Assembly (NCBI GenBank): GCA_018650465.1
Contig: JABIFY010000022.1
Span: forward strand, 1-64,000
DNA length: 64,000 bases
From: Alphaproteobacteria bacterium
Lineage (GTDB): Bacteria > Pseudomonadota > Alphaproteobacteria > UBA2966
Direction: 5' to 3'
In this document: positions 1,231 through 23,527 of the stretch, in pieces
Numbering within the stretch: the stretch's first letter is position 1
Layout of the letters: each line of letters opens with the position of its first letter
Notes under the pieces: model-generated
Seen by the model: only the letters and a program-made list of their open reading frames with translations
Databases searched by the model: none
Told to the model about the DNA's origin: nothing
Translations under genes and position numbers: made by a program

Positions 1231-1335
1231 CCGTCATACTGGCGAAGGCCAGTATCCATGATGAGTTTTAATACGGAAAAACTGTGCTGGTAAAAGACTC
1301 ACTATGGATACTGGCCTTCGCCAGTATGACGGCTA
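1231..1335. repeat. Inverted pair of a dispersed palindromic element
   Basis: The word TACTGGCGAAGGCCAGTATCC at 1237-1257 recurs in inverted orientation at 1306-1326, separated by about 50 bases, so the region can form either two small GGCCAGTA hairpins or one long one. A relative with the same GGATACTGG/CCAGTATCC arms lies at 39812-39847. It sits between the divergent pentapeptide gene and the Rieske gene and overlaps the spurious upstream extension of the latter. Confidence 0.75.
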
Positions 1336-1397
1336 TATTTGGGCCGCTTTACCCTCACTCAAATTATGATAATTTGAAAGCCCGCCATCAAAGGACA

Positions 1398-2759
1398 ATG
1401 CCCCCTATGCTCACCGCCGAGAAAAACGACCTGATCACCCGGACCGACAAGGGCACGCCTTGTGGGGAGATGTTGCGCTCGTACTGGCAACCGGCAGCGC
1501 TGGTGGAGGAATTTGATGCCGAACGGCCGATCGTGCCGGTGCGCTTGTTTGGCGAGGACCTGGTGGCGTTTCGCGATGAAGGCGGTCGTTACGGTTTGTT
1601 CGACCGGCGCTGCACACACCGCGGGGCAGATATGTGTTTTGGGCGCCTGGAGGATGGCGGTTTACGCTGTCCGTTCCATGGCTGGCTGTTTGATGTGGAC
1701 GGGGCTTGTCTCGAGCAACCGGCGGAACCGGAAGAAAGTAATTTCCGCAACAAAGTGCGCCAGACGGCCTATCCCTGTCTTGAGCGCAATGGCGTGGTCT
1801 TTACATATATGGGCCAAATGAATGAGAAGGGAGAGGCTCCACCACTGCCCGATTACGACTGCTTCACAGCTCCGGCGGCCTATACATTTGCCTTCAAGGG
1901 GCATGTGGATTGCAACTGGTTGCAGGCGCTGGAGGTCGGCATTGATCCGGCGCATGCCTCGTACCTGCACCGGTTTTTTGAGGACGAAGACCCGGACGAG
2001 GCTTATGGCAAGCAGTTTCGCGACCGGGCCGATGGTACGGACCTGACGGTCACCGAAGTATTGCGCGAATATGACCGGCCTGAAATTGAAGTTGAAGAAA
2101 CGGCGTCCGGTTTGCGCTTGACCACCTTGCGCGATCTCGATGATCAGCAGCGCCACGTGCGGATCACGAACCTTGTCTTCCCCAACGCCTTTTGCATTCC
2201 CATCAGCAATGACATGGTGATCACCCAATGGCATGTGCCGGTGGATGATGGCGAGAACTATTGGTACGCCATGTTCACCGACTTCAGCAACACGGTTGAT
2301 CAGGTGACCATGCGGACACAACGCCTGGAAAGCTGCACCTTGCCGGACTATAAATCGACCCGCAATCGGGACAACAATTATGGCTTTGATGCGGAAGAAC
2401 AGCGTACCAAGACCTATACGGGCATGGGCATGGACATCAATGTGCACGACCAGTGGGCGGTGGAATCGCTGGGTAAAATCCAGGATCGCACGACCGAGCA
2501 TCTCGGCACCTCGGACAAGGCTATTATCGCCAATCGCAAAATGTTATTCCGGGCCATCGAAGCCGTGCAACAAGGCGAAGACCTGCCTGCCGGTGCCGGA
2601 GAAAACCTGCGCGGCCCTGTGGCCATCGACGCGGTGGGGCCGCCTGCGGAACAGGCGACAATCTGGAAAGAACGCGATCTCAAACGGCGGCATAAATCAG
2701 CCTGGGCGCAAGACCCTTGGTTAAACTCAAAAGGGTTAAAGGTATCTGGGAATGAGTAA
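1398..2759 (+). CDS. Rieske-type aromatic ring-hydroxylating oxygenase, alpha subunit (phthalate 4,5-dioxygenase-like)
   Basis: Oxygenase component of a Rieske non-heme-iron system, expected to hydroxylate or demethylate an aromatic or amine-linked substrate in the cytoplasm using electrons from a separate reductase. Seen: the Rieske motif CTHRGADMC...CPFHGW near residues 70-95 and the mononuclear-iron motif GIDPAHASYLH near residue 185. At 453 residues the length fits the phthalate dioxygenase/LigX group. The frame is open from 1284, but that stretch is a repeat; ATG 1398 (or 1407) follows AAGGA and begins just before the conserved MLTAEKNDLITRT start. The stop overlaps the next gene by 8 bases, so co-translation with the ligase is likely. 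No reductase gene is adjacent. The substrate is unknown. Confidence 0.88.
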   Translation: MPPMLTAEKNDLITRTDKGTPCGEMLRSYWQPAALVEEFDAERPIVPVRLFGEDLVAFRDEGGRYGLFDRRCTHRGADMCFGRLEDGGLRCPFHGWLFDVDGACLEQPAEPEESNFRNKVRQTAYPCLERNGVVFTYMGQMNEKGEAPPLPDYDCFTAPAAYTFAFKGHVDCNWLQALEVGIDPAHASYLHRFFEDEDPDEAYGKQFRDRADGTDLTVTEVLREYDRPEIEVEETASGLRLTTLRDLDDQQRHVRITNLVFPNAFCIPISNDMVITQWHVPVDDGENYWYAMFTDFSNTVDQVTMRTQRLESCTLPDYKSTRNRDNNYGFDAEEQRTKTYTGMGMDINVHDQWAVESLGKIQDRTTEHLGTSDKAIIANRKMLFRAIEAVQQGEDLPAGAGENLRGPVAIDAVGPPAEQATIWKERDLKRRHKSAWAQDPWLNSKGLKVSGNE

Positions 2760-4206
2760 CACAGTCGACCATCGCAGCTTCGTTGAGCGTCACAATTTGC
2801 ACGATGACATGCGCGCCGAAGCCGAGGCCCGTGCCATTCGCATGTGTGAGGACTATGACCTCAGTGTGGTACGCCTGTCTTTTGCCGACCAGCACGGGGT
2901 GCTGCGCGGCAAGACGATCATGGCCCAGGATATTCACGGGGCGCTGGATAACGGCATCACCATGACGACGACTTTGCTGGCCAAGGATACGGCCCACCGC
3001 ACGACCTATCCTGTCTTTACAACAGGTGGTGGTTTTGGCATGGAGCAGATGTCAGGTGGCGGTGACTTTGTTATGATCCCCGACCCGACGACGTTCAAGG
3101 CTTTGCCCTGGGCCTCTAATACAGGCTGGATGCTGTGCGATATTTATTTTCCCAACGGTGATCCCGTGCCGTTTTCGACCCGCCAGATTTTGCGCGATTC
3201 TCTCGGCAAGCTGGCGGACCAGGGTTATGATTATGTCACCGGCCTGGAGGTCGAATTCCATTTGTTTAAACTGGAGGATCCCAAACTATTGCCCCATCAG
3301 GCAGGTGCTCCGGGTGAAGCGCCTGAAGTCAGTTTGCTGAACCAGGGTTATCAGTACCTTACCGAAAGCCGGGCTGATGATCTGGAGCCCTATGTGGAAG
3401 TTCTGCGCGATACCCTGATGGCCATGGACTTGCCGCTGCGTACAACAGAGGTTGAGTTCGGCCCCAGCCAGCTTGAATTCACCTTTCATCCGCAAGGCGG
3501 GCTTGCCTCTGCCGACACCATGATGCTGTTCCGCAGTGCGGTGAAACAAACGGCGCGCCGGGCGGGCCTGCATGCCAGCTTCATGTGTCGTCCGAACCTG
3601 CCCAACATATTTTCCAGTGGCTGGCACCTGCATCAATCGCTTGTGGAACGGGGCACAAGCAATAATGCCTTCATGCCTGCCGAGGGTGAGATTATTTCGC
3701 CCATCGGCAAGCAGTTTGTGGCTGGCCTGCTGGACCACGCCCAGGCGGCCTCGGTCTTTTCAACACCGACTATCAATGGCTACAAGCGTTATCAGCCTTA
3801 TTCCCTCGCCCCGGACCGGGCCTTGTGGGGTTACGATAATCGCGGGGCCATGATCCGGGTGGTCGGCGGGCCAGGCGATGCGGCCTCGCGCATTGAAAAC
3901 AGGGTCGGTGAACCTGCTGCAAACCCTTATCTGTATCTCGCGTCGCAAATCGTATGTGGTCTGGACGGCATGGCACGTCAGCTGGACCCGTCATCGCCGG
4001 TTGATGCGCCGTACGATACCGAAGCGCCTTTATTACCCACCAGCTTGCTGGCTGCGATCTATGCCCTGAAGGAAGACACTTTGTTCCGGCGTGAATTCGG
4101 TGACCAGTTTGTCGATTACATCCTGCATATAAAAGAGGCCGAAGTCAGTCGTTTCCACGCCACAGTGACCGACTGGGAACACAAAGAATATTTCGGGGTG
4201 TTTTAA
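2752..4206 (+). CDS. Glutamine synthetase-family gamma-glutamyl ligase
   Basis: ATP-dependent ligase of the GlnA fold, 484 residues. Seen: metal and substrate motifs EVEFHLFKLEDP, WHLHQSL, NGYKRYQPYSLAPDRALWGYDNRGAMIRV and the glutamate-flap-like NRVGEPAANPYLYLA. The [10 protein letters not shown] adenylylation-loop sequence of the true GlnA at 39923 is absent, so this is a paralogue of the gamma-glutamylamide type (families such as PuuA, IpuC and the aniline-pathway ligase). It overlaps the Rieske oxygenase gene by 8 bases. Known: in aniline and isopropylamine catabolism a GS-like enzyme glutamylates the amine and works with oxygenases. Inference: this pair glutamylates and oxidises an amine. 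The specificity cannot be read from the sequence. Confidence 0.85.
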   Translation: MSNTVDHRSFVERHNLHDDMRAEAEARAIRMCEDYDLSVVRLSFADQHGVLRGKTIMAQDIHGALDNGITMTTTLLAKDTAHRTTYPVFTTGGGFGMEQMSGGGDFVMIPDPTTFKALPWASNTGWMLCDIYFPNGDPVPFSTRQILRDSLGKLADQGYDYVTGLEVEFHLFKLEDPKLLPHQAGAPGEAPEVSLLNQGYQYLTESRADDLEPYVEVLRDTLMAMDLPLRTTEVEFGPSQLEFTFHPQGGLASADTMMLFRSAVKQTARRAGLHASFMCRPNLPNIFSSGWHLHQSLVERGTSNNAFMPAEGEIISPIGKQFVAGLLDHAQAASVFSTPTINGYKRYQPYSLAPDRALWGYDNRGAMIRVVGGPGDAASRIENRVGEPAANPYLYLASQIVCGLDGMARQLDPSSPVDAPYDTEAPLLPTSLLAAIYALKEDTLFRREFGDQFVDYILHIKEAEVSRFHATVTDWEHKEYFGVF

Positions 4207-4220
4207 ATATCCCAACCGTC

Positions 4221-4304
4221 ACCCCGCACTTGATGCGGGGTCATCGCTTATGAATACAGGTATCCCTCTTGGTGTAAGCATGGATGCCGGATCAAGTCCG
4301 GCAT
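4221..4304. terminator. Two hairpins between converging genes (dispersed palindromes)
   Basis: ACCCCGC-acttgat-GCGGGGT (4221-4241) and ATGCCGG-atcaagt-CCGGCAT (4284-4304) share a seven-base loop of the ACTTGAT/ATCAAGT type. A third member lies at 41992-42022. They separate the converging ligase and TetR genes and could act as bidirectional terminators, although neither is followed by a strong T-run. This class of GTCATGCCGGACTTGATCC palindrome is common in alphaproteobacterial genomes. Confidence 0.6.
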
Positions 4305-4318
4305 GACAAAAGCTGCCA

Positions 4319-4909
4319 CTAACGCTTCACGCCACCCACAATAATCCCGGCATATTTGTGGGCGATGTCGGTGATCTCGGTGGCATCACTGCCGCGATAC
4401 CATTGCAGAACCGAATTGCACAGACCCAACATTGCAAGGGTGACGAGGCGGCAATCCAGATCGGGCTGGAAGGTTTTGTCCAGGACGCCTTCTTCGAACA
4501 TGCCTTGCAGGACTTTTTCATAACTCGCCGCCAGCCTGGTTACAGGTTTTGCTGTATCGCTCGACAGATACCGGCGTTCATTCAGGAAAACCTTCACATA
4601 GTCCGGCATTTGGTGAAAGGGCGCCATATGGGCAGCGATGGCCGCTGTAATCTTTTCATCGGCTGTCATGTCGGCGTTGGCTATGTCACGGGCCCGATCA
4701 TGGAATTCTTCTACCCCCATGCGGCAAACTTCGGTCAGGGCCGCGTTCTTGGAGCTGAAATAGTGATAAAGGCCAGCTTGTTTGATGCCGAGGCGATCGG
4801 CGATATCGCGGGTGCTGGCGCCATGAAAGCCCTTTTCCGCAAAGACAGACGCGGCGGCATCCCGTATTTCTTTTAGTCGTTTTGGTTGAGATTTTTCGGC
4901 ACGGGGCAT
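4319..4909 (-). CDS. TetR/AcrR-family transcriptional regulator
   Basis: A 196-residue one-component repressor. Seen: an N-terminal helix-turn-helix (VFAEKGFHGASTRDIADRLG followed by IKQAGLYHYFSSKNAAL, residues 17-55), with the GLYHYF recognition-helix signature typical of TetR, and an all-helical ligand domain behind it. It is transcribed divergently from the second Rieske oxygenase gene, with about 185 bases between the two starts, which suggests that it controls that gene and possibly the Rieske-ligase pair on its other side. The ligand is unknown. Confidence 0.9.
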   Translation of the reverse strand: MPRAEKSQPKRLKEIRDAAASVFAEKGFHGASTRDIADRLGIKQAGLYHYFSSKNAALTEVCRMGVEEFHDRARDIANADMTADEKITAAIAAHMAPFHQMPDYVKVFLNERRYLSSDTAKPVTRLAASYEKVLQGMFEEGVLDKTFQPDLDCRLVTLAMLGLCNSVLQWYRGSDATEITDIAHKYAGIIVGGVKR

Positions 4910-5094
4910 GGCGATCAGAGTTTTCCGGTTTTCTTGATTTGATCAAACCATAGCCTGGTGTCTGCCACGTGTCTGCCGCGATCCAAACCAGGACTTTAAA
5001 TAATCGACGATCCGACGCCTGCAAGTCTCGCATGGACAAGGCGGATATCCATGGGTTAACATTCAGAAATAGTTCGCATACGAAGGATATTTAC

Positions 5095-6219
5095 ATGAGC
5101 TTGCTGCTGGATGACGCCGAAGTTATCGACCGGATCTTTGATCATATCGACGGTAAAAGTACAGATTTGGGCGAAGACGTTTGGCGTGAGCCTGTCGAAA
5201 GCTATTCTTCGCAAGAACGATTTGATGCGGAAATCAATCTGCTGAGGCGCCTGCCGGTGCCTTTTTGCCCCTCAGCCGCCTTGCCCGAGGCCGGATCTTA
5301 TATCGCCCGGACTTCAGCGGGCACACCTTTATTGGTCGTGCGCGGTGATGATGGTGTGGTCCGGGCCTTTCGCAATGCTTGCCGCCATCGCGGCATGGCC
5401 GTGGCGGATGGCAGTGGTTGCCAGCGCAGTTTTGTCTGCCCCTATCACAACTGGGCCTATGATCTGGACGGCAGCCTGAAACATATCACGGACGCTGAAG
5501 GCTTTCCTGGACTGGATAAAGACCAACACGGCCTGGTGCCGGTCACAGCAGAAGAAAAGGGCGGTCTGGTCTTCATTACCCAGGAAGAGCCTGTCTCTGG
5601 CGGTGCGCTGGACTATATGCCGGACCTGATTGCGCCGGATAACATTGTTTTCAATTCCATTGAAATTGTGGATGAGGCCAACTGGAAGCTGATCGGGGAG
5701 ACCTCCATGGAGGGCTACCACATCAAGGCCCTGCACAATAAAACTTTCTTTCCCTACGGTTTCGACAATCTGAACGTGGTGCAGACCTACGGCCCCAACT
5801 CCCGCATTGTCTTTCCCTTCCGCCGGGTCGAAAAGATGCGCGATGTGCCACGTGAGGAACGCTATCTGGATGGCCTGGTGACCGATGTCTATCAGTTTTT
5901 CCCCAATACCCACGTCACCAAACTCTCCAGCCATTCCATGCTGATCATCCTCGAGCCGGTATCACCGACCCGGACGCGTTGGGTGATCTATCAAATGCGG
6001 CCCAAAAAAGAGGGTGAAAGTGATGCCGATGTCGCCGAAGCCAAACGCGACGCCGGTTTTGTCCAGGATTCAGGCCTGAAAGAAGACCGCGACGCTGCCT
6101 GTTCCATTCAGGCCGGTTTGGCCGGTAACGCCAACAGTCACTTCACTTTTGGCCATTTTGAACAGGGGATCGTGCATTTCCACAAGACGTTGCATGAATT
6201 GCTGTCGAAGGTGGGGTAG
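5095..6219 (+). CDS. Rieske 2Fe-2S aromatic/amine oxygenase alpha subunit
   Basis: Second Rieske non-heme-iron oxygenase, 374 residues from the chosen ATG. Seen: CRHRGMAVADGSGC...CPYHNWAYD around residues 95-125, and an iron-binding helix NWKLIGETSMEGYHIKALHN near residue 200. This variant resembles the choline/carnitine monooxygenase and glycine-betaine demethylase branch more than the upstream oxygenase. The frame is open from 4969, but ATG 5095 lies 7 bases after GAAGGA, so the longer form is rejected. It is divergent from the TetR gene. No dedicated reductase is adjacent; the closest candidate is the reductase at 22253, which belongs to another operon. Substrate class is inferred only from similarity. 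Confidence 0.87.
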   Translation: MSLLLDDAEVIDRIFDHIDGKSTDLGEDVWREPVESYSSQERFDAEINLLRRLPVPFCPSAALPEAGSYIARTSAGTPLLVVRGDDGVVRAFRNACRHRGMAVADGSGCQRSFVCPYHNWAYDLDGSLKHITDAEGFPGLDKDQHGLVPVTAEEKGGLVFITQEEPVSGGALDYMPDLIAPDNIVFNSIEIVDEANWKLIGETSMEGYHIKALHNKTFFPYGFDNLNVVQTYGPNSRIVFPFRRVEKMRDVPREERYLDGLVTDVYQFFPNTHVTKLSSHSMLIILEPVSPTRTRWVIYQMRPKKEGESDADVAEAKRDAGFVQDSGLKEDRDAACSIQAGLAGNANSHFTFGHFEQGIVHFHKTLHELLSKVG

Positions 6220-10473: not shown

Positions 10474-11331
10474 TTAGAACCAGTTCTTTACCTTCCGTCC
10501 TTCCTTGTCTTCCATGTCGCCGCCGATCAGCATGGTGATCACATCGTAAAGATACCACAGGCCGGCACCGCCGACGGTGATGGTCATCAGGACTCCGGTT
10601 TTTTTGTGGCCGAGATAGTATCTGTGACCGCCGAAAATGCCCAGGATGATCAACAGCAGGCTGGCGGCAAACCTTTTGCGGGGCGAGATTTCATCGCTGC
10701 TGGTTTCTGCCGGTGTCTGGTCTGGTTTATTCTTTGGGCGGCTGACAAAGATATTGGGGTCATTCGCCGCATGAAATTCAGCGGGCTGGTAGCCGGGTTT
10801 GCCAGGCGGGGCGATCAGCCAGGCGACGATGGGCTCGGCAATGTTCTTGACCTGCTTTTCACCCAGTGACCGGTAGCCCAGATCAAGCTTGTTGCGGATC
10901 TGGCGGAAAACATCACCTGAGATGCAAATGCCGCCGGGTTCGGCCAGGGCCTCCAGACGGGCTGCGATATTAACGCCGTCGCCATGGATATCGTCTGAAT
11001 CGACAACAATATCCCCTAGATTGATGCCCATGCGAAACTCGGCAACCAGGTCTTGCTTTGCATTGAGCTTGTGTTCTGCAAAGGCTTCCTGCATTTCCAG
11101 AGCGCATCTGACGGCACCGGCGATGGTTGAAAACTCCGCCAGAAAGCCGTCGCCCGTGTGCTTGACGATACGCCCCGTATGGCGGGCCACGGTGGGATCA
11201 ATGACATCACGTCGGGCAGTGTGCCAGGCTTTGATGGTCGCATCTTCGTCTGCGTGCATCTGCCCGGTGTAGTTGACCATGTCTGCTGCCAGAATAGCGA
11301 CCAGTCGCCTGGTTACTGCTGCGTCCGTCAT
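10474..11331 (-). CDS. Class III adenylate/guanylate cyclase with C-terminal TM2 domain
   Basis: Makes cAMP or cGMP. Seen: cyclase domain in residues 6-180 with metal-binding Asp in ILAADMVNYT and HTGDGFLAEF, and the transition-state Asn/Arg in GDGVNIAARLE. A linker of about 50 residues is followed by a TM2 domain: RKRFAASLLLIILGIFGGHRYYLG, then GLWYLYDVITMLIGG. Cyclase fused to TM2 is an uncommon layout and would tether the catalytic domain to the inner membrane. The frame extends to 11385, but ATG 11331 behind AGAGGGA matches the conserved start. It lies 2 kb from an operon encoding a protein with two cyclic-nucleotide-binding domains (14473), a possible functional link. It does not look like part of an operon. 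Confidence 0.87.
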   Translation of the reverse strand: MTDAAVTRRLVAILAADMVNYTGQMHADEDATIKAWHTARRDVIDPTVARHTGRIVKHTGDGFLAEFSTIAGAVRCALEMQEAFAEHKLNAKQDLVAEFRMGINLGDIVVDSDDIHGDGVNIAARLEALAEPGGICISGDVFRQIRNKLDLGYRSLGEKQVKNIAEPIVAWLIAPPGKPGYQPAEFHAANDPNIFVSRPKNKPDQTPAETSSDEISPRKRFAASLLLIILGIFGGHRYYLGHKKTGVLMTITVGGAGLWYLYDVITMLIGGDMEDKEGRKVKNWF

Positions 11332-11393
11332 ATTTCCCTCTGAATATTGCCGGTCGATATTCCCATTTTTTCCAATAGCATACAATTACTCAA

Positions 11394-13407: not shown

Positions 13408-14355
13408 ATGGAAATCGTTGGCCGCCATTTGTTTGCCGCAGTTCTGACTGCAATTGCCTTTGTCATGCTGACTCCAGCCGTTCAGGCGGCACCTGTCGCC
13501 CTGGGTGACAAGACCTGTCTTGAATGTCACAAGGCGGAGCATGCTGTTTGGTCTGAGACCAAACACTTCAAATCCTTCCGGACAGTTCACAAGAACAAAA
13601 AAGCCAAAGCCATTGTTAAATCGATTGGCGGCAAAAGCATGAAAAAAGAAGCAGCTTGTGCTTTGTGCCACTACACCAGCATTTCGAAAAAAGCTGGCAA
13701 AAAGGCAAAGCCAAAGGCTGGCCCCAGTTGCGAAAGCTGTCATGGCGCCTCTTCTGACTGGATAAAAATTCATAACGATTATGGCGGACCAAACGCCAAG
13801 ATGGCTGACGAAACCCCGGCCCATAAAGTCGAACGCATCGCCAAGGCCACAGCCGCCGGCATGATCTGGTCCAGCAACCACTATGGCATCGTTGAAAATT
13901 GCATGTCTTGCCATGGTCTGAATAATGACGCCCTGGATGGCAAAACCTTGGCTGCCATGCTTGATGCGGATCACCCATTGAACCCGGATTTTGAGCTGGT
14001 GCGCTATTCGCAAGGCTCCATCCGGCATCGCTATTATGCGCCGGACGCTACCAAAAATGCTGAAATGACACCGGCTCAGCTTTCGGAACTGTTTGTTGAA
14101 GGCCAAGCCGCCAAGCTCGTGTCCGCCACAGATGCGCTGACAAAATCTGACAACGCAAAATACCAGGCCGCACAAAAGTTGCGCCTGGAAAAGGCGAAAG
14201 CCGCATTGTCGGCTGTGAAGTCTGTGCCGGAAGTTGCGGCCTTGCTGAGCGCCCCTACCAGAGAAAACGCGCTTAAGCTTATTGAGGCCATCAAGGGTAA
14301 GGATTTGTCTGCTGAAGTTGGTTCCATGATCCCGGCGAAAGCCGACTTCAAATAA
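13408..14355 (+). CDS. Periplasmic tetraheme cytochrome c (c554-like)
   Basis: First gene of the operon, 315 residues. Seen: Sec signal peptide (residues 1-27, ending VQAA) and four CxxCH heme sites CLECH, CALCH, CESCH and CMSCH. The CLECHKAEHAVWSETKHFKSF start is the cytochrome c554 pattern (a CxxCH followed by xxxxxxW and a distal His). The C-terminal 100 residues are helical, Ala/Lys-rich and free of hemes. Known: c554 proteins shuttle electrons in the periplasm, for example from hydroxylamine oxidoreductase. Inference: soluble electron carrier for the operon. Its 3' end is involved in alternative hairpins. Confidence 0.92.
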   Translation: MEIVGRHLFAAVLTAIAFVMLTPAVQAAPVALGDKTCLECHKAEHAVWSETKHFKSFRTVHKNKKAKAIVKSIGGKSMKKEAACALCHYTSISKKAGKKAKPKAGPSCESCHGASSDWIKIHNDYGGPNAKMADETPAHKVERIAKATAAGMIWSSNHYGIVENCMSCHGLNNDALDGKTLAAMLDADHPLNPDFELVRYSQGSIRHRYYAPDATKNAEMTPAQLSELFVEGQAAKLVSATDALTKSDNAKYQAAQKLRLEKAKAALSAVKSVPEVAALLSAPTRENALKLIEAIKGKDLSAEVGSMIPAKADFK

Positions 14356-14397
14356 GAAAATAATAGAAAGTCGGCTTCAAATAAGCGAAAGCCGACT
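14339..14397 (+). promoter_or_regulatory. Three mutually complementary arms: alternative hairpins in the cytochrome/ferredoxin intergenic region
   Basis: Arms AAGCCGACTT (14339-14348), AAGTCGGCTT (14368-14377) and AAGCCGACT (14389-14397). The middle arm can pair with either flanking arm, so two mutually exclusive hairpins are possible. The first arm lies inside the stop end of the tetraheme gene and looks partly duplicated in the third (GCGAAAGCCGACT-x-AAATAA). This could be an RNA stabiliser or attenuator setting the ratio of the first gene to the rest. Confidence 0.55.
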
Positions 14398-14472
14398 ATA
14401 AATAACAATAAATATGGAAGATCCCAGGCTAAACAATAGTCTGGACTTCCCGATCCAGGGAGAGCAGGTCGA

Positions 14473-16161
14473 GTGGCATCAGTTGCGCATCTGAGCAAAC
14501 CCCAGCGTTGGGATTCGCCGTATGATCCGGAAATGCAGGACAGTGACGTCCAGAATTTGCTCACGCGTCCGGAAATTGTGGCGATTGATGCGAATTCCTT
14601 TCCCGACAGCCTGCCGCTTGAAGGCATACTCAAAAACGACACTCGACTGGTGCGCTTTAATCCTGGCGATATTGTGGTCCGCGAAGGTGATTACGGAAAT
14701 TCAGCCTTTGTCATCCTGAAGGGGGACCTCAGGGTCTTTACCGGCGATTATCCGACGGCATTACTGGGTCGTGAGACGGCCAGTAAAAAAGGGCTGTTCG
14801 AAACCCTTGCCCAGGTCTGGACCAACAAACGCACACCGGAAGTCCGGGATACGTCGCGATACGGGGATCAATCCGTTCGCGCCTCAAAACGCGGTGGGCG
14901 GGAAAAAAGGCTGGATTCAGGCTCAAGTGTCTTTGTTCAGGATATCCCCGTTGTGCTGGACAAGTATCGCACAGCCCAAATGTCGGAAGGGGCCTTGTTT
15001 GGCGAACTGGCGGCCTTGGGGCGCATTCCCCGGACAGCAACAATTTTTGCAGAAAATAGCGCGACTTTGCTGGAAATCCGCTGGCAGGGTTTGCGGGAAA
15101 TTCGCCGCTTTGACGACGGTTTCCGCAGAATGATTGATAACCGCTACCGGCAAAATGCCTTGCTGGTTCATTTGCGGGAAACCGAACTGTTTGCCAACCT
15201 GGATGAAGAAGTGCTGGACAAGGTCGCCCAGGCCACATTGTTCGAGACCTATGGCGCTTTTGACTGGCATGTGAGTTATCAGAAGATGCGCTCCAGCGGC
15301 AAAGCCGCATCAACAAATGAGCCAGCCATTGCGCGGCAGGGTGAATATGTCGATGGCCTGTTGATGATCCGGGCGGGTTTTGCGCGGGTTGCCCGTGAAT
15401 ATGGCACCGGCCAGCGCACCCTGACCTATTTGGGGGCGGGCGACAATTTTGGCCTGGAAGAACTTTATCAAGGCTGGAAAGCGGGCGAGACAGTTAATAT
15501 GTCTTCGTCACTGACGGCGCTGGGCTATGTCGATGCCCTGCGGGTACCGGCCCAGGTTCTTGAGGAATATGTCTTTCCTCACCTGGCAGAGGGTGCGATC
15601 AAGCTGACGGAAAAAACCGAACGTACACTGGCAGACGATGCCTTGCTGGAGTTCGCCGTCGAAGAACGTTTTATCAATGCAACGCAGGCCATGCTGATCG
15701 ACCTCGACCGTTGCGTGCGCTGTGATGATTGCGTACGGGCTTGCGCCTCGACCCACGGCGGCAACCCGCGCTTCTTGCGGCATGGCAAAACATTTGACCA
15801 CTGGATGGTGACCAATGCCTGTATGCATTGCACGGATCCGGTCTGCATGATCGGCTGTCCCACCGGCGCCATTCACCGCAGTCAGGTCGGTGGCAGTGTT
15901 GTTATCAATGATGACACCTGTATCGGCTGTTCGACCTGTGCAACGTCTTGTCCCTACAACAATATCCGCATGGTCGAAATTCGCAGCGCGGACAGCCACG
16001 TTGTCGTCGATCCGGACACACAGCAGCCCATCCTCAAGGCTACAAAATGCGATCTTTGTTATACCAACCCTGGTGGCCCGGCCTGTGTGCGGGCTTGCCC
16101 CCATGATGCTCTTAATCGGGTTGATTTCCATTTGGATTCCCTCGCCGAGGGAGATATCTGA
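14473..16161 (+). CDS. Tandem cyclic-nucleotide-binding domains fused to a four-cluster [4Fe-4S] ferredoxin
   Basis: 562 residues, GTG start. Seen: a cNBD around residues 45-220 with VRFNPGDIVVREGDYGNSAF and a near-complete phosphate-binding cassette LFGELAALGRIPRTATIFA (Glu and Arg kept). A long insertion (about residues 95-165) interrupts its beta-roll. A second, degenerate cNBD follows (FANLDEEVLDKVAQ ... GAGDNFGLEELYQG). From residue 405, 16 Cys form four clusters: CVRCDDCVRAC, CMHCTDPVCMIGC, CIGCSTCATSC and CDLCYTNPGGPACVRAC. The ferredoxin part resembles HybA/DmsB-type subunits. No signal peptide, so it should be cytoplasmic. Inference: an electron carrier whose docking or transfer may respond to cAMP or cGMP. 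Its stop overlaps the next start (TGATG). Confidence 0.88.
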   Translation: MASVAHLSKPQRWDSPYDPEMQDSDVQNLLTRPEIVAIDANSFPDSLPLEGILKNDTRLVRFNPGDIVVREGDYGNSAFVILKGDLRVFTGDYPTALLGRETASKKGLFETLAQVWTNKRTPEVRDTSRYGDQSVRASKRGGREKRLDSGSSVFVQDIPVVLDKYRTAQMSEGALFGELAALGRIPRTATIFAENSATLLEIRWQGLREIRRFDDGFRRMIDNRYRQNALLVHLRETELFANLDEEVLDKVAQATLFETYGAFDWHVSYQKMRSSGKAASTNEPAIARQGEYVDGLLMIRAGFARVAREYGTGQRTLTYLGAGDNFGLEELYQGWKAGETVNMSSSLTALGYVDALRVPAQVLEEYVFPHLAEGAIKLTEKTERTLADDALLEFAVEERFINATQAMLIDLDRCVRCDDCVRACASTHGGNPRFLRHGKTFDHWMVTNACMHCTDPVCMIGCPTGAIHRSQVGGSVVINDDTCIGCSTCATSCPYNNIRMVEIRSADSHVVVDPDTQQPILKATKCDLCYTNPGGPACVRACPHDALNRVDFHLDSLAEGDI

Positions 16162-16976
16162 TGGTTGCCAGTCGTATTCGCATTTTGATGGTCCTGCTGG
16201 TCGCGGGTGTGGTTTTCGACCTGTTATTGCTGGAAAGTGATCGGATCAAGGTTTCCCTCGGCAGTGCCGCTGAACTGACGGGATACTGGTTGTTCGGCGT
16301 TATGGTTTTTCTGACGCTGTTTAATTTGCGCAAAAAACTGTCAATGATCCCCTTGGGGTCCGCATCGATCTGGTTAACTTTACACGCCGTTGGTGGCGTT
16401 CTGACATTGGCCCTGTATTGGCTGCATACGGAATCTATCTGGCCTCAGGGTGTCTACGAACAGGTCATTGCCGTCCTTTTTTATCTGACGGTCGCCAGTG
16501 GCATATTCGGCTATGTCACACAAAAAATATATCCACCGCGCCTGACTCAATCCGGCGTTGAAGTTATTTATGAGCGCATCCCCGCCCATATTTTTGAAAT
16601 CAGGGAAGAGGTCGAAGCCCTGGTATTGAAGTGCACCGAGGAAACCCGGGTTGATACCCTTGGACGGCATTATCTGGACACAATGACCTGGTTTTTCCAT
16701 CGGCCGCGGTTTTTTATCAGCCATACAGTCGGTAGCCAGATTGGTCGCCAATGGGTGCGTCAGCAAGATGCCAATGTGCGTCGATACCTGAATGATGAAG
16801 AAGCACTTTATCTCGACAAGATGACGGAACTGGCCCTCCTGAAAAATGGTATTGATCTGCACTACGCCTTGCAAAGTGTCATGAAGCGCTGGTTGCTACT
16901 GCATTTGCCTTTGACCGCAGCCTTGATGACATTGGCGATTTGGCACCTTCTTGTTGTGAATGTGTATGCATTATGA
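16161..16976 (+). CDS. Five-helix membrane protein, predicted di-heme cytochrome b
   Basis: 271 residues. Seen: hydrophobic helices at about 6-24, 40-57, 68-89, 97-120 and 245-268. His75 and His89 (LHAVGG, YWLH) on helix 3 and His248 and His262 (LLHLPL, IWHLLV) on helix 5 are each 14 residues apart, the spacing that ligates two stacked b hemes across a membrane. Between helices 4 and 5 is a soluble domain of about 120 residues rich in charged residues. I do not recognise a named family. Inference: it carries electrons through the inner membrane between the cytoplasmic ferredoxin/reductase and the periplasmic cytochromes. Its end overlaps the decaheme gene by 4 bases (ATGA). Confidence 0.78.
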   Translation: MVASRIRILMVLLVAGVVFDLLLLESDRIKVSLGSAAELTGYWLFGVMVFLTLFNLRKKLSMIPLGSASIWLTLHAVGGVLTLALYWLHTESIWPQGVYEQVIAVLFYLTVASGIFGYVTQKIYPPRLTQSGVEVIYERIPAHIFEIREEVEALVLKCTEETRVDTLGRHYLDTMTWFFHRPRFFISHTVGSQIGRQWVRQQDANVRRYLNDEEALYLDKMTELALLKNGIDLHYALQSVMKRWLLLHLPLTAALMTLAIWHLLVVNVYAL

Positions 16977-18886
16977 GCAATTCATTCGACTATAATTTTG
17001 ATCGAAGTTCCTACGAACGGCCCAACAACTTGTTTGTCTGTGGCCGGGCAACCGAATGGGGCAAGCCCTGTGGCCGGGGACCGAATGGCGACGGCACCTG
17101 TGGCGGTACAGCCGAATGCAAACCATTTGATCGCAATGGCCGCTGGGAATGTCGCAGGCCGCCGCAAGATGGCGGCCCCTGTGCTGACGGGCCGGGCCCG
17201 GATGGAACTTGCGGCTGTTCTTTGCCTCCTTGTGTGCCGCGACGCTCGTTGAGGCAACAGAGGTGGCGTTTGTCTGTCATTCTTGTGGGTGTGGCCATTG
17301 CCCTGATCGCTGTTTTTACCCAGTTGGCGACCAATAATGATATTTTTGCCGGTTCCGCCAGATTGGCAGCCCTTGATGCCGGCGACCTGACCGGATCACA
17401 TTCAGGGTTCACAGGTGCCAAAGGCTGCAAAACCTGTCACGAGGCCCACGACGCCAAGCCCTTACAGTGGCTGGCTGCCGCATTCAGCAAAAATGACCTG
17501 ACGACGCGCTGCGTTGATTGTCACAAATTCGGTGGTCCTGCCAACAGGCCCCATAATGCCATCTTCACATCCACGGTGGGCGGCAAGAGCAACGCCAATC
17601 GCAAGACCGAATGCACCATGTGCCACACGGAACACAAAGGCGAAGGCGCTGACATCTCCGGTCTGGATAATAAACAATGTGCCTCCTGTCACAAAAAGGC
17701 TTTTTCGACCTTTGATCGTGGACACCCCAAATTCTCCAAACAATTCCCCCATTTCCGCCGGGCCTCTATCCGTTTTAATCATGCTTCACACCTGAACAAA
17801 AACTTTCTCAAGCCAGAAGTGAAAGACAAGGCCCCGGCCAGTTGCACCACTTGCCATCAGGCGACATCAGCTGAGCGTTCGGTTGAACCGCTTGGGTTCG
17901 ATAAAAGCTGCGCTGGTTGTCACGCAGACCAAATATCCAAACGTAATCTTGTGGTCTTGCGCCTGCCCGAATTTGAAGAGACTGAAATCGACAAGGATGC
18001 CGTCATCGAAGCCTGCGGCCCCAATGCCGAGGATGAAGAGGAAGACGAGGAATATGAAAGTGTCTCGGCGGAGGAATTGAACTCTGTGGGGGCCTTCCTG
18101 ATGAATGTGACTTCTGATGACGTGGAAGCCTATTCCGAAGCCTTTCAGACCTTGCTGATGGCCATGGCCGAAGAGGGTACCGTGCCTTTGGCTGGTTTGC
18201 TGGAAGAAGCTGGTATCAAGGGCAATCCGGCGACAATGTTTGCTGGTCTGAATCCCGAGGCAGTAAAACGCATGGCCTGTGCCTGGGCTAAAAACCAGGA
18301 ATATGAATTGCCGGCCGATCCTCAGTTCGGCGGTTGGTACGGCGATATTGTGGATTTGATATACCGTCCGGCGGGGCACGGCGACCCGGTCGTCAAAGCC
18401 TGGCTGGAAATGGCGATCTCAGCCAAAAGTGACGACGAAGAAGTTTCTGAGCGCATTTCTGACATGCGCACTGAATTGTTGTCCCCCCGTGAAGGGGCGG
18501 GGGCATGCGTGAAATGTCATGCGGTCAGCCGGGAAACTGAAGAGGGGCCTCTGAAAATTGAGTGGACCTATCACAAAGACAGAGAGCAAAGCTATCAGAC
18601 CTATTCTCACAGTCAGCACCTCAGTCTGGTAAATCCACAAGGTGTGAAGCTGGCGGATCCGACACGGGGCTGTGCCACCTGTCACAAGCTGGACCAGAAA
18701 GCTGATTTCGCCTCCGGATTTAAAGATTTCAACCCGAAGACGTTTTCGAGTAACTTTACTTCGTTAGATAAGCAAGCGTGCGTACAATGTCATACAGAAG
18801 GCCGTGTCCGTCAGGATTGCCAGCTTTGTCATGATTATCACAAGGAGCCCGGGTTTACAGACCGGGTCACACAGAATGAAAACTGA
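16973..18886 (+). CDS. Membrane-anchored decaheme cytochrome c with Cys-rich cytoplasmic head
   Basis: 637 residues from the overlapping ATGA. Seen: residues 23-84 hold nine Cys in a duplicated pattern (GKPCGRGPNGDGTCGGTAEC and GGPCADGPGPDGTCG), then one transmembrane helix (about 98-118). Six CxxCH sites follow (CKTCH at 152, CVDCH, CTMCH, CASCH, CTTCH, CAGCH at 313). A heme-free insert of about 200 residues has an acidic run (AEDEEEDEEYE), and four more sites close the protein (CVKCH at 512, CATCH, CVQCH, CQLCH at 616). Topology inference: Cys-rich head inside, hemes in the periplasm. The head could bind a metal or Fe-S cluster and so accept electrons inside the cell. It overlaps the next gene by 11 bases. 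Confidence 0.9.
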   Translation: MSNSFDYNFDRSSYERPNNLFVCGRATEWGKPCGRGPNGDGTCGGTAECKPFDRNGRWECRRPPQDGGPCADGPGPDGTCGCSLPPCVPRRSLRQQRWRLSVILVGVAIALIAVFTQLATNNDIFAGSARLAALDAGDLTGSHSGFTGAKGCKTCHEAHDAKPLQWLAAAFSKNDLTTRCVDCHKFGGPANRPHNAIFTSTVGGKSNANRKTECTMCHTEHKGEGADISGLDNKQCASCHKKAFSTFDRGHPKFSKQFPHFRRASIRFNHASHLNKNFLKPEVKDKAPASCTTCHQATSAERSVEPLGFDKSCAGCHADQISKRNLVVLRLPEFEETEIDKDAVIEACGPNAEDEEEDEEYESVSAEELNSVGAFLMNVTSDDVEAYSEAFQTLLMAMAEEGTVPLAGLLEEAGIKGNPATMFAGLNPEAVKRMACAWAKNQEYELPADPQFGGWYGDIVDLIYRPAGHGDPVVKAWLEMAISAKSDDEEVSERISDMRTELLSPREGAGACVKCHAVSRETEEGPLKIEWTYHKDREQSYQTYSHSQHLSLVNPQGVKLADPTRGCATCHKLDQKADFASGFKDFNPKTFSSNFTSLDKQACVQCHTEGRVRQDCQLCHDYHKEPGFTDRVTQNEN

Positions 18887-20666
18887 GACTGCAACCCTCA
18901 CTCCCTGGCGTGATTATTCATTACGTACATCTACCTGGCGATCCGTGCTGTTCGCCTCTGCCCTGATGCTGGCCGTGCTGATGTCAGTGTGGCCAACGCT
19001 TGCAGCAGATAAAAAAGTCGCTGACCCCCACGCAGATGTCTTTTCCGAAAGCTCTTATCCTTCGGCAACGGAATGTGCCAAATGTCACCGGGATACTTAT
19101 GAAGAGTGGCGGTCATCCAGCCATGCTTATGCCGCCATCTCGCCGGTTTTTCACAAGTTCGAACAGGCCATCAATAACCTGGCCCCAACGATTGGCGATT
19201 TCTGCGTGCGTTGTCATGCAACGGCTGGCACCCAGATGGGCGAAAAGCGTGAAGCAGCCTTATGGGAGCGCTCACAGGTCTCGCGCGAAGGCATTACCTG
19301 CATTACCTGCCACCGGGTCGATGAAGCCTATCTGAAAGTGAATGGCGAACGCCGGATCGTTCCGGGCGATATCTTCCAGCCGGTTTACGGACCGACCGGT
19401 GGTGAGGGCGTAGCCAAGGTGATCAAGGACAAGGATTTTTATAAGGTCGCCACAAAAGAGGGCGAGCGCGGCAATCAAATCCATCTCTCTGCCATCAAGT
19501 TTGAGCAGTTAGACAAATCGGAATTTTGCGGCGCCTGTCACCAGGTCGCTGTGAACCTTGGGGTCAAGCTGGAAGTGGTTTGGGACCAGTACCGGGCGTC
19601 GCCAGCATATGCTGCGGGTACCACATGCCAGGATTGTCACATGAGCAAGGAGCCGGGCAAGGCAGCTGGTTTCAGGAAGGGTTCTACGGCTGTTGTCGGC
19701 GGCAAGGAAATTAACCCGGAACGCAAGCGTCATAATCACGCCCTGGTTGGACCTGGTTATCCTATCGCCCACCCCGGCATTTTCCCGCACAATGGGGCTG
19801 CCGAAAACTGGACTATTGAAGAATGGCTTCAGTTTGATTATCGCGCTGGCTGGGGCACCGAAGAATTTGAGGAAAAAGTCGACGAAGGCGAGATAGAAGA
19901 TAAATTCCCCGAAGCCTGGGAAGATGTCGCCGATCGGGAAGAAGCCCGCGAGATCATTGAAGACAACCTTGACAAAATTGACGAGAAAAAAGACCTGCGC
20001 CAACAGGTCATGGAAAATGGCTCCCGCATCGACGGTCCGTTTTTTGAAGGCAGCAAGGGCATCGGTCAAAGCCTCGCTTTCTCTTACAAGGTCAGCAATA
20101 TCAATCCCGGCCATAACCTGCCGTCAGGGTCCCTGGGGGCCCAGCCGGAACTTTGGTTGAACGTGGCCCTGATCGATCCGGATGGCAAGAATGTCTGGGA
20201 GTCTGGTTATGTGGATTCAGCCGGTGACATGGCTGACCTGCACAGCCAGGATGTGCTGGATGGCAAGCTGGCACACGATGATCAGTTGTTTAATTTGCAA
20301 ACCAAATTTCTGACAACCAACGTCAAAGGCACAGACCGCGAGATGTATTTACCGGTGAACTTTGATGTGGACCAGCTGCCGTTCTTGCGACCTGCAGCCC
20401 AGCCAACAACTGTGATAAACCATCCACCGTTCGTACGTATGGAAGGCCGCAGTATTCCGCCTCTGGGGTCACGCATGGCAGAATATAAAGTGCCGGGCAA
20501 TCTGATCAGCAAGCCAGGAAAATATCGCCTCGCCGTCCGCATGCGCAGCCGGGCCGAGCCGATCTATTTCATGAAGTTCATTGGGGCCACCCAGGATATG
20601 ATACGATCCATGAATGAATGGATGTTGGATATTCACCCCTATACGGTCGAGTTCGAGGTTAAATAG
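18876..20666 (+). CDS. Pentaheme c554-family cytochrome with long C-terminal domain
   Basis: 596 residues from ATG 18876, which overlaps the upstream stop. Seen: a hydrophobic segment (about 22-44, ending LAAD) that may be a cleaved signal or an anchor, then five CxxCH sites between residues 67 and 251 (CAKCH, CVRCH, CITCH, CGACH, CQDCH). The c554-like ECAKCHRDTYEEW pattern is present. The C-terminal 340 residues carry no heme but include NINPGHNLPSGSLG, a motif seen in multiheme cytochromes with a beta-rich tail, and a very acidic stretch (EEFEEKVDEGEIEDKFPEAWED). Inference: a periplasmic heme protein that may be a reductase or a connector to the outer-membrane protein encoded next, which starts directly after its stop. 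Confidence 0.88.
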   Translation: MKTETATLTPWRDYSLRTSTWRSVLFASALMLAVLMSVWPTLAADKKVADPHADVFSESSYPSATECAKCHRDTYEEWRSSSHAYAAISPVFHKFEQAINNLAPTIGDFCVRCHATAGTQMGEKREAALWERSQVSREGITCITCHRVDEAYLKVNGERRIVPGDIFQPVYGPTGGEGVAKVIKDKDFYKVATKEGERGNQIHLSAIKFEQLDKSEFCGACHQVAVNLGVKLEVVWDQYRASPAYAAGTTCQDCHMSKEPGKAAGFRKGSTAVVGGKEINPERKRHNHALVGPGYPIAHPGIFPHNGAAENWTIEEWLQFDYRAGWGTEEFEEKVDEGEIEDKFPEAWEDVADREEAREIIEDNLDKIDEKKDLRQQVMENGSRIDGPFFEGSKGIGQSLAFSYKVSNINPGHNLPSGSLGAQPELWLNVALIDPDGKNVWESGYVDSAGDMADLHSQDVLDGKLAHDDQLFNLQTKFLTTNVKGTDREMYLPVNFDVDQLPFLRPAAQPTTVINHPPFVRMEGRSIPPLGSRMAEYKVPGNLISKPGKYRLAVRMRSRAEPIYFMKFIGATQDMIRSMNEWMLDIHPYTVEFEVK

Positions 20667-22184
20667 ATGCTGATGTTCAAAATAAAGGCTTCCCGTTCTG
20701 GCATCGCTTCACTGGTTCTGGGGCTTGCCGCTGGTGCATCACTGGCCTTTGCCGCGCAAGCCGCCGATGTCAAAATGGACGAGGGTAGCAAGATCGTTGA
20801 ACATTCATCGACGGTCTTCAAACCCGATCCAGACTACAAGGAAACGCCTTATTCGGCTGAAGCCCAACGGAATATCTATGGCGGCAAGTCAGCTGTGGAA
20901 ACGCCGCGCCCACTTCTGGAACTGGGTCGCAAGCAATATTCTGAAGGGCCGTTTGAAAAAGGCTCTGACTTTTTCGGTAAAAAGAATCTGATGTTTCCCG
21001 GCCTGTCGATCTATGGCGACTGGCGTACAGCTGTGGCCTATAACGACAATGGTGCTGGCGAAGTTGGTCGTGTTGCGACCCGCCTCAATCTTGATATCGA
21101 TTTGAAGCTGACCTCGACGGAGCGCATCCATGCCTTCTTGCGGCCACTGGATCAGGGCGGCAATTTCACCCGCATTGATTTCTCAGGTGATGATGAAGCG
21201 GGTAGCGAGCTTGTTACCGATGCCAATCTGCAAACCTTGTTCTTTGAAGGGGACCTTGGATCCATTGCCACTGGCCTGAGCGATAGTTATTCAGGTTTTG
21301 ACTTACCGTTTTCCTTTGGCTTGATGCCCCTGGTCTTCCAGAACGGTATCTGGATGGATGATGCTTTTTCAGGTGTGGCTTTTTCCATTCCGGCCCGTAA
21401 TTCAGCGGCCCTCGATATATCCAATATGGATTTCACGTTCTTTGCCGGTCTGGATAAAGTAACATCGCCCGCGATCACGGATGGTATCGGGGATCAGGCT
21501 GATCACAACGTCAATATCTATGGTGCGGCTGCCTTTGTTGAAGCCAACAGGGGCTACTGGGAAGCCGGTTACGCCCGCCTTGATGGCCGTGATGGCCTGG
21601 ACGAATTTGATTTTCATAATGTGACTGTGGCCCATACCCGTCGCTTCAGGGCCTTGCTGTCAAACAGTGCCCGTGTGATCTGGAGCTTTGGCCAGAATCG
21701 CGACAATAATGTTCAGCAAACGGCGGATGGCACGATCATTCTCATAGAGAACTCTCTGATCACGTCGAAGCCGTCCACCTATATTCCTTACTTCAACTTC
21801 TTCGCCGGGTTTGACCGGCCGCAATCGGCGGCCCGGGACAATGGTGGGATATTGAAAAATGTCGGTATCAACTTCGAAACCGATGCTCTGACCGGCTATC
21901 CTAAACTGGACGACACTGGCCATGATACTTTTGGCGGTGCTGTCGGTATCAACTATCTGTTTGGCCTTGATCGCCAGATTGTCGCAGAAGTCGCGGGCCT
22001 GAAAATTCGCGGCAGTCAAAATGATGCTGGACGCGCCGCTGCAGGTGATCAGTTTGCAGTCGGTGTGCGTTACCAACAACCGATCAGCAAAACCTGGATT
22101 TTGCGCGGTGATGCCATGGCTGGTTTCCGTGATGCCGCCGATGATTTGCTGGGCGTTCGGTTTGAAGTCCGGCGGAAATTTTAG
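20667..22184 (+). CDS. Outer-membrane beta-barrel protein of the multiheme operon
   Basis: 505 residues. Seen: signal peptide (ends AAQAAD, about residue 33), repeated alternating hydrophobic strands (GLSIYGDWRTAVAYND, RVATRLNLDIDLKLTS, RQIVAEVAGLKIRG) and a C-terminal strand LLGVRFEVRRKF ending in Phe, the usual BAM signal. It is shorter than the MtrB/PioB barrels of known porin-cytochrome conduits and lacks their CxxC. It starts at the base after the pentaheme stop, so it is co-translated. Inference: it could insert a cytochrome into the outer membrane, or be a channel for the substrate. I do not recognise a specific family. Confidence 0.82.
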   Translation: MLMFKIKASRSGIASLVLGLAAGASLAFAAQAADVKMDEGSKIVEHSSTVFKPDPDYKETPYSAEAQRNIYGGKSAVETPRPLLELGRKQYSEGPFEKGSDFFGKKNLMFPGLSIYGDWRTAVAYNDNGAGEVGRVATRLNLDIDLKLTSTERIHAFLRPLDQGGNFTRIDFSGDDEAGSELVTDANLQTLFFEGDLGSIATGLSDSYSGFDLPFSFGLMPLVFQNGIWMDDAFSGVAFSIPARNSAALDISNMDFTFFAGLDKVTSPAITDGIGDQADHNVNIYGAAAFVEANRGYWEAGYARLDGRDGLDEFDFHNVTVAHTRRFRALLSNSARVIWSFGQNRDNNVQQTADGTIILIENSLITSKPSTYIPYFNFFAGFDRPQSAARDNGGILKNVGINFETDALTGYPKLDDTGHDTFGGAVGINYLFGLDRQIVAEVAGLKIRGSQNDAGRAAAGDQFAVGVRYQQPISKTWILRGDAMAGFRDAADDLLGVRFEVRRKF

Positions 22185-22252
22185 GCCAGAGAGATGTCAG
22201 AGAAAAATGTCAGAGAAATGATGGGGCTGAATAAACCAGAGGAGCAACGTTC

Positions 22253-23527
22253 ATGGATGTCTTGATCGATCTTTTTGCCGTCCTGTTTCTGGGCGTTGTC
22301 ACGATCTATACCGGTAGCTGGGCGCTGATGTATAACCGCCGCACTTTGCTGGCCCGGCGCAGCCATGAGCATCAGCAGGAATTGTTGCGGGCGCAAATTG
22401 ATTTGATCGCTGACCGCAGGCGCATGGAGCGAGAGAAAACCGATCTTTCGTGGAACGGCTTTCGTAAATTTGAAGTCCACCGCAAGCAAATCGAGGCGGA
22501 TGGCGTATGCTCGTTCTATCTCGCTCCCCATGATCGCAAAGACTTGCCACCTTTTGAGCCTGGCCAGTTCCTGACATTTGACTTGCCGGTGCCGGGGCAG
22601 CCAAAAAATATTATTCGCTGTTATTCCCTGTCAGACAGTCCCAATCATCCAGACTATTACCGGGTGTCGATCAAGCGTGTGCCGCCGCCGCGGGATCAAC
22701 CAGACCTGCCACCTGGCCTTTCGTCAAACTATTTCCATGACAACCTGGAAGAGGGCGATATCCTGGACGTCAAAGCACCGTCCGGGCACTTCTATCTTGA
22801 TATGTCATCCCACATGCCCGTCGTTCTGATCGGTGGCGGCGTTGGTCTGACACCGGTGTTGAGTATGTTGAACGCCATAGTCGAAGCCGGGTCACAAAGG
22901 GAAACGCATTTTTTCTACGGCGTCGTGAATGGCAAGGATCACGCCTTCAAAGAGCATCTGCACCAAATCGCCCTGGAAAACCAGAATGTGCATTTGCATG
23001 TTTGTTATTCCAAGCCAGCGGATGACGATGTCCTGGGTGAGGATTTCCAACACGACGGCCGGGTCGGTGTGCCCTTGTTCAAGGAACTGCTGGACTCCAA
23101 CAATTACGAATATTACCTATGTGGTCCGCCGCCCATGATGAATTCTGTTGTCGGTGATCTGGGTGAATGGGGTGTCCCGGAAAAGAATATTCATTTTGAA
23201 GCCTTCGGTCCGGCATCAGTTAAAAAACCCAAGGACGATGCTCCCGCCGATCCGGCAGCCACCTCGGTTTCATATGAGGTCAGTTTTGCCCGTTCAAACA
23301 AAAAAGTGACGTGGACGCCAGAAGCAGGATCGTTACTGGAGCTGGCAGAAGACAACGGCATCAACGCCATTAACTCAGGTTGTCGGGCCGGTAACTGCGG
23401 CTCCTGCATTACGGCCATCAAAAAAGGTGAGGTCGATTACGTTAACGAGCCGGGTTCACCGCCAGAAGATGGCTCGTGTCATGCCTGTATCACGGTGCCA
23501 AAGTCCAATATGGAAATTGACGCCTGA
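22253..23527 (+). CDS. Membrane-anchored FAD/[2Fe-2S] NAD(P)H oxidoreductase
   Basis: 424 residues, last gene of the operon. Seen: an N-terminal helix (about 4-25), a short charged coil, an FAD domain with RCYSLSD and SNYFHDNLEEGD (close to flavohemoglobin reductase), an NAD(P) domain with LIGGGVGLTPVLSML and YYLCGPPPMM, and a C-terminal plant-type ferredoxin with CRAGNCGSC (Cys377, 382, 385) and a further Cys at 409 or 412. The layout matches NqrF/phenol hydroxylase-type reductases with the 2Fe-2S domain moved to the C-terminus. Inference: it moves electrons between NAD(P)H and the cNBD-ferredoxin or the cytochrome b. ATG 22253 is preceded by CAGAGGAGC. It ends 7 bases from the converging P450 gene. 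Confidence 0.9.
   Translation: MDVLIDLFAVLFLGVVTIYTGSWALMYNRRTLLARRSHEHQQELLRAQIDLIADRRRMEREKTDLSWNGFRKFEVHRKQIEADGVCSFYLAPHDRKDLPPFEPGQFLTFDLPVPGQPKNIIRCYSLSDSPNHPDYYRVSIKRVPPPRDQPDLPPGLSSNYFHDNLEEGDILDVKAPSGHFYLDMSSHMPVVLIGGGVGLTPVLSMLNAIVEAGSQRETHFFYGVVNGKDHAFKEHLHQIALENQNVHLHVCYSKPADDDVLGEDFQHDGRVGVPLFKELLDSNNYEYYLCGPPPMMNSVVGDLGEWGVPEKNIHFEAFGPASVKKPKDDAPADPAATSVSYEVSFARSNKKVTWTPEAGSLLELAEDNGINAINSGCRAGNCGSCITAIKKGEVDYVNEPGSPPEDGSCHACITVPKSNMEIDA

Follow-up and report, generated by a model that had tools for sequence, protein, structure and literature searches.

The gene at 14473..16161 (+) of the window, a 64,000-nucleotide stretch of alphaproteobacterial DNA analysed here, encodes a fusion of two cyclic nucleotide-binding domains (cNBD-1 and cNBD-2) with a ferredoxin, and this cNBD-ferredoxin is a subunit of a conserved seven-gene transmembrane system. 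The protein is very probably the cytosolic subunit of a multi-cytochrome electron system, and the explanation that we favour as a whole, at a probability of roughly 0.58, is a multi-protein electron conduit gated by a ligand, of which it would be the iron-sulfur subunit. A reductase carrying FAD and [2Fe-2S] would oxidise NAD(P)H and pass electrons through the four [4Fe-4S] clusters of the fusion to a membrane cytochrome b, from which they would travel by way of a membrane-anchored 10-heme cytochrome to 4-heme and 5-heme cytochromes and a porin, and so to a final acceptor, either periplasmic or outside the cell. When cAMP or cGMP binds to cNBD-1, the packing of cNBD-1, cNBD-2 and ferredoxin would change, by which electron transfer would be switched or tuned. 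The observed basis of this model is the architecture, the conservation of cassette and operon, the heme counts and a sister fusion; the order and direction of electron flow, the identity of the ligand and the gating itself we infer. That ligand binding controls electron flow has about an even chance of being right, and the sharper proposal, that a second messenger directly opens or closes the conduit, whether respiratory or extracellular, with cAMP or cGMP on a cNBD gating the entry of NAD(P)H electrons into the chain of b- and c-type cytochromes, is put forward a little more tentatively still.

Electron export in bacteria is known to be set mainly by transcription. A conserved subunit able to bind a cyclic nucleotide while holding an iron-sulfur wire would allow flow to be switched within seconds and, if this is true, gating of the conduit would be a post-translational counterpart of CRP control and the electron analogue of cyclic-nucleotide-gated channels. 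Multi-cytochrome conduits are a known kind of system; the mode of control is potentially new. A search of open-access PMC papers for the window-type fusion brought up none on a cNBD-ferredoxin within a cytochrome operon, and the system is apparently undescribed so far.

Domains of the fusion protein

The open reading frame starts at a GTG codon, from which the homologues also align, and encodes 562 amino acids with no signal peptide, as fits a cytosolic protein. Pfam cNMP_binding matches it in three stretches (3e-21), PF00027 scoring 75.6 bits on the whole protein against a cut-off of 27.5, and several Fer4 families match as well; the order is cNBD-1, cNBD-2 and a 16-Cys ferredoxin. The conservation figures given here come from an alignment of 47 distinct homologues, and the AF2 model has a pLDDT mostly of 70-92 in both cNBDs and of ~40-75 in the ferredoxin, where it is too weak to trace the passage of a signal to the clusters. 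The earlier note, made from the letters of the DNA, described the protein correctly in every main point, including a near-complete phosphate-binding cassette in cNBD-1, a long insertion in the same domain, a degenerate second cNBD and 16 Cys as ligands of four [4Fe-4S] clusters.

cNBD-1 (residues 19-229, 14527..15159, +) has the canonical cNMP-binding fold and finds PKG and PKA by phmmer; its model aligns with the cGMP-bound MloK1 CNBD at Z 16.0 and an rmsd of 1.9 A over 129 of 130 MloK1 residues (VIA-align). In its phosphate-binding cassette, FGELAALGRIPRTAT (residues 176-190, 14998..15042, +), F176, G177 and R184 are present in 47/47 homologues and E178 and R187 in 46/47 each, compared with a mean top-residue frequency of 63% across the domain. 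Alignment with the PKA cassette places both the Glu and the Arg that hold the ribose 2'-OH and the phosphate, and the spacing, with Arg nine residues after Glu, and the pattern FGELA..x..PRTAT match both PKA and PKG. cNBD-1 probably binds a cyclic nucleotide, and it can be expected to be the sole domain of the protein that binds a ligand, cNBD-2 being without the Arg. Thr188 resembles the cGMP-selective sites of PKG; since the family is mixed at this position (Thr in 23 homologues, Ser in 14), a preference for cAMP or cGMP cannot be called from it. Because cassettes with both Glu and Arg are common in the window genome, occurring in about 10 or 11 of its 17 other cNBD matches, the cassette is to be read as a sign of a binding site and not of gating.

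The insertion of cNBD-1 occupies the beta4-beta5 loop (about residues 97-160, 14761..14952, +), flanked by a strand ending at about residue 90 and by one at 167-170; it is variable in length, poorly conserved (mean top-residue frequency 0.37 in the 47 homologues) and predicted to be disordered, with pLDDT below 50. The engineered cAMP sensor G-Flamp1 has its cpGFP in the MloK1 domain at Pro285/Asn286 (PMC9468011), a site which by alignment appears to fall in the equivalent loop, and since cpGFP is carried there, a large insert in cNBD-1 would be compatible with ligand binding. In one clade (L044-L046) the insertion is shortened and the 10-heme partner lacks its Cys-rich cytosolic domain, which is likewise missing from the 10-heme partner in L048. 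The idea that the insertion is an interaction module for that domain was set aside as weak: in the tree L044-L046 form one derived, fast clade, which makes the joint change a single event and a contact between the two parts only a suggestion.

cNBD-2 (about residues 223-390, 15139..15642, +) keeps the fold, its model matching CNB-B of PKG II at Z 14.5, and has a degenerate cassette from which the Arg is absent in all 34 homologues examined; the domain is most likely a relay or scaffold. Its family-wide loss of the Arg lends something to the alternative that both cNBDs are scaffolds, docking the ferredoxin on cytochrome b and the reductase, with any ligand they hold being constitutive or something other than a cyclic nucleotide. 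There are many CRP/FNR-type folds that bind no cyclic nucleotide, and the fold matches include trypanosome PKA regulatory subunits, which bind nucleosides. We nevertheless regard this alternative as unlikely, considering that E178 and R187 and the pattern FGE..A..R..PR stay unchanged in homologues down to 36-40% identity and that both cassettes are canonical in the sister family described below.

The ferredoxin domain (residues 405-552, 15685..16128, +) has four [4Fe-4S] motifs of the HycB/DmsB/NrfC type, and all 16 Cys are 98-100% conserved in the 47 homologues. Among solved proteins it is closest to HycB3 of the hydrogen-dependent CO2 reductase (6e-20), HycB4 and formate hydrogenlyase subunit 2. 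The four-cluster ferredoxins HycB/HydN, DmsB and NrfC have their 16 Cys in the same order, whereas the window protein has N-terminal cNBDs and its operon contains no molybdoenzyme or hydrogenase gene; all matches of the protein to NCBIfam equivalogs are below the curated cut-offs, the best at 69.2 bits against 1003 (AegA), with DmsB at 63.9 against 214.1. Individual Cys are replaced in two homologues, each a single copy, Cys420 by Phe and Cys462 by Tyr in L042:8977-10671 and Cys453 by Gly in L024:8091-9752 (window numbering throughout), which may reflect sequencing error or cluster loss.

Like the PKA regulatory subunit and PKG, which have tandem cNBDs, and the MloK1 and SthK channels, the window protein has the cNBD fold, and the likeness extends to tandem order and to the spacing and residues of the cassette; it differs from them in that its output is a four-cluster ferredoxin and not a kinase or channel, and that cNBD-2 is degenerate. 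The earlier remark that cNBDs normally control transcription, channels or kinases was too narrow, as solved bacterial fusions of cNBDs to other effectors, the Rv0998 acetyltransferase and PycTIR, are among the matches.

The seven-gene operon and its distribution

The fusion is not a free-standing electron carrier, the gene being part of an operon whose members all lie on the + strand of the window. Upstream is a 4-heme c554-like cytochrome with a signal peptide (13408..14355). Downstream are a membrane cytochrome b (16161..16976) with two H-x13-H pairs, from which two hemes are expected; a 10-heme cytochrome (16973..18886) with a cytosolic Cys-rich N-terminus (~ten Cys), one TM helix and periplasmic hemes; a 5-heme ExtKL-like cytochrome with a signal peptide (18876..20666, the start placed at Met 18876); a porin-like outer-membrane protein, also with a signal peptide (20667..22184); and an NAD(P)H reductase with an N-terminal TM anchor, FAD and NAD domains and a C-terminal [2Fe-2S] domain (22253..23527). 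Few-base overlaps join the cNBD-ferredoxin, cytochrome b and 10-heme genes in the window. When gene neighbourhoods were compared in 42 loci, the cytochrome b gene was found directly 3' of the cNBD-ferredoxin gene and was followed by the 10-heme gene, the 4-heme gene was upstream in most, and the reductase gene and the pair of 5-heme and porin genes were nearby, on either strand. Counts of 4, 10 and 5 hemes recur in nearly all complete copies of the operon.

In cytochrome b, His75 and His89 never vary and the conservation of His248 and His262 is at least 90%; its Pfam matches are limited to weak ones to b561, DUF4405 and ferric reductase, and Foldseek, run on its model (pLDDT 92), brought up nothing at E <0.1. 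The size and signal peptide of the porin-like protein fit an outer-membrane barrel, and a YfaZ match below the cut-off is seen in one of 16 homologues (the window protein), so weak a Pfam support that the protein is called a putative porin from signal peptide, size and operon only. As minor features of the window, the stretch between the 4-heme and cNBD-ferredoxin genes (14340-14475) contains a second, GCCGACTTCAAATAA-like copy of the end of the upstream gene and gives a far stronger fold than its shuffles (z -4.55), possibly as a processing or attenuation hairpin, and at 1284-6219 two Rieske ring-hydroxylating oxygenase subunits flank a glutamine-synthetase-like gene, possibly a degradation cluster of the aromatic amine/aniline type.

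The extHIJKLMNOPQS cluster of Geobacter sulfurreducens encodes a porin-like protein, the 5-heme ExtKL, 10-heme and 4-heme cytochromes and an inner-membrane cytochrome b (PMC5877670, PMC6148476), and the window operon has this same gene set, a likeness of composition. All 15 of the 15 homologues of the 5-heme protein that were scanned match the ExtKL model (best 9e-13), but the window protein scores 44.6 bits against a curated 250. The Geobacter cluster as described has a Rieske protein and no cNBD-ferredoxin (PMC5877670), whereas the window operon is without the 12-heme ExtM, the Rieske ExtO and the rhodanese ExtH, and has the cNBD-ferredoxin and NAD(P)H reductase instead. With an ExtKL score so much below the curated threshold and the other parts likened by composition only, the system is not filed as an Ext member; by analogy, it would work as a transmembrane electron conduit of the ext kind with cytosolic entry of NAD(P)H electrons.

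A resemblance to MtrCAB/Pcc systems lies in a short match of the window decaheme (1.8e-4, profile positions 139-270) to 6r2q chain A, which we take to be MtrA of the MtrCAB structure, and in the adjoining porin-like gene; the window decaheme is, in contrast, anchored in the inner membrane, and its operon holds cytosolic NAD(P)H and Fe-S subunits. No further cytochrome gene that could encode a surface multiheme cytochrome of the MtrC/OmcA type is present within 13408-23527, and the matches to MtrC/MtrF-like domains cover short parts of the 10-heme and 5-heme proteins. The reductase has FAD, NAD and [2Fe-2S] domains in common with NqrF, flavohemoglobin and phthalate dioxygenase reductase, but scores 114 bits on the NqrF model against a curated 295, and the operon contains no other Nqr subunit (NqrA-E) and no oxygenase.

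Full-length homologues of the window protein, at 36-93% identity, were found at 31 loci in the genome collection, and since they occur in several phyla, nearly always with the same two genes after them, a fusion by chance is excluded. The distribution is patchy, with homologues in 12 of 143 relatives, in 13 of the 398 phylum-sample genomes and in 2 of 52 from the phylum SAR324, and takes in Alphaproteobacteria, other classes of Pseudomonadota, Nitrospinota, Planctomycetota, Verrucomicrobiota and SAR324. The Nitrospinota sequences nest among alphaproteobacterial ones (support 100/98 for their own clade, 100/100 for the wider clade), which is consistent with transfer between phyla; no match to the window-type protein was found in plasmids. 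The nearest relative (G001) has two copies of the system (L010, L022), one in the gene order of the window and another whose 4-heme, porin and 5-heme proteins are encoded on the other strand. A copy on a contig filed under Chloroflexi (L025) has as its partner in the tree, at 100/100, a Proteobacteria-filed copy, and the contig is probably misbinned.

The known Nitrospinota are lithotrophic nitrite oxidisers, and their homologues would suit a conduit that runs inward, in which a periplasmic or extracellular donor reduces NAD(P)+ or ferredoxin by means of the membrane potential, as lithotrophic uptake under the control of the cNBDs; the direction of flow is not readable from sequence. Carriers also include Roseibium and Breoghania, and Sphingobium for the sister type, all of them heterotrophs, and the transfer of electrons from NAD(P)H to heme c is downhill and its reverse uphill, which makes inward flow distinctly improbable. 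The preferred reading, of NAD(P)H electrons leaving the cytosol under control of a ligand, can be tested at the bench as far as gating is concerned, since cultured carriers exist in Roseibium aggregatum and, for the sister type, Sphingobium herbicidovorans.

A sister family with a fused reductase

A profile of the cytochrome b finds matches in 21 of the 143 relatives, 10 of them distant, and all 10 genomes with a distant match encode a sister protein of ~800 aa in which Pyr_redox FAD/NAD domains, two cNBDs and a four-[4Fe-4S] ferredoxin follow one another; each of the 21 relatives that have this cytochrome b thus also has a cNBD-ferredoxin, which is of the window type in 11 and of the sister type in 10. 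Most of the loci read encode, 3' of the sister gene, cytochrome b and then a 10-heme cytochrome with an FHA-like cytosolic N-terminus, and two loci have adjacent genes for the 5-heme protein and the porin of the window system, at 59-62% and 50-56% identity, respectively. One genome (G133) has the cytochromes and porin (L091) without an adjoining sister gene, the sister protein being encoded on another contig.

The best argument for the separate reductase of the window serving the cNBD-ferredoxin comes from the sister protein, a single chain that joins a reductase of the NAD(P)H type to cNBDs and ferredoxin. The reductase families differ, with a TrxR-like Pyr_redox module in the fusion and a separate FAD/NAD/[2Fe-2S] gene in the window. 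The system is found in several phyla with two reductase solutions, a separate or a fused one. Both sister cNBDs have canonical cassettes, e.g. FGEMGLISGRRRTAT and VGEMALLTKQHRSAT, which suggests, on an unrooted comparison, an ancestor with two binding sites and the loss of one of them in cNBD-2 of the window type. Taken together, the sister fusion supports an electron path from NAD(P)H to the periplasm that would include a regulatory unit able to bind cyclic nucleotides.

The FHA-like domain (FHA and Yop-YscD matches) precedes one TM helix and a multiheme periplasmic cytochrome in L092:6719-8416, L096:90-1136 and L091:5274-7406; in the window family the Cys-rich domain takes its place.

Possible supply and removal of the ligand

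A possible source of the ligand is encoded 3 kb upstream (10474..11385, -), a protein that resembles class III nucleotide cyclases and has a membrane segment at its C-terminus. Its gene is found beside the operon only within the same genus (sister species), and a local cyclase was rejected as an obligatory partner. The window genome has 29 class III cyclase matches, and such cyclases are present in 35 of 36 carrier genomes compared with 82 of 116 relatives sampled, a weak enrichment which is confounded with genome size and kinship.

A candidate for removal of the ligand is a metallophosphoesterase gene that lies 3' of the sister genes in Sphingobium TomMM7A and in Sphingobium herbicidovorans MH (plasmid pMSHV), whose sister protein is WP_231568103. 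The metallophosphoesterase is related to the phosphodiesterases SpdA/CpdA (NCBIfam, 1.9e-38 and 8e-22) and Rv0805 (PDB, 5.8e-23), with scores under the curated cut-offs. No such gene was seen beside the operon outside Sphingobium among the loci examined, and its general membership of the operon was rejected. The proposal of a ligand-controlled electron carrier is still the best reading and is strengthened by the Glu/Arg cassette, the CNBD fold, the sister fusion and this phosphodiesterase-like gene; the corrections to it are that the protein is no lone carrier and that cNBD-2, lacking the Arg, is not expected to bind. The wealth of cyclases and the phosphodiesterase-like gene would also suit the reverse coupling, in which the redox state of the clusters sets ligand affinity and the protein serves cyclic-nucleotide signalling as a sink or sensor that responds to redox state, not exclusive of gating because both directions of coupling are thermodynamically linked, but highly improbable given a four-cluster ferredoxin, a fused sister reductase and a cytochrome operon that point to electron through-flow.

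Other genes recur near the sister operon, among them HbpS-like or 'heme-binding' proteins of 640-700 aa (L104:24995-26493, L094:1396-3312, L095:800-2911 and L097:2075-4093), and in Sphingobium an unusually large multiheme cytochrome of ~1330 aa is encoded close by.
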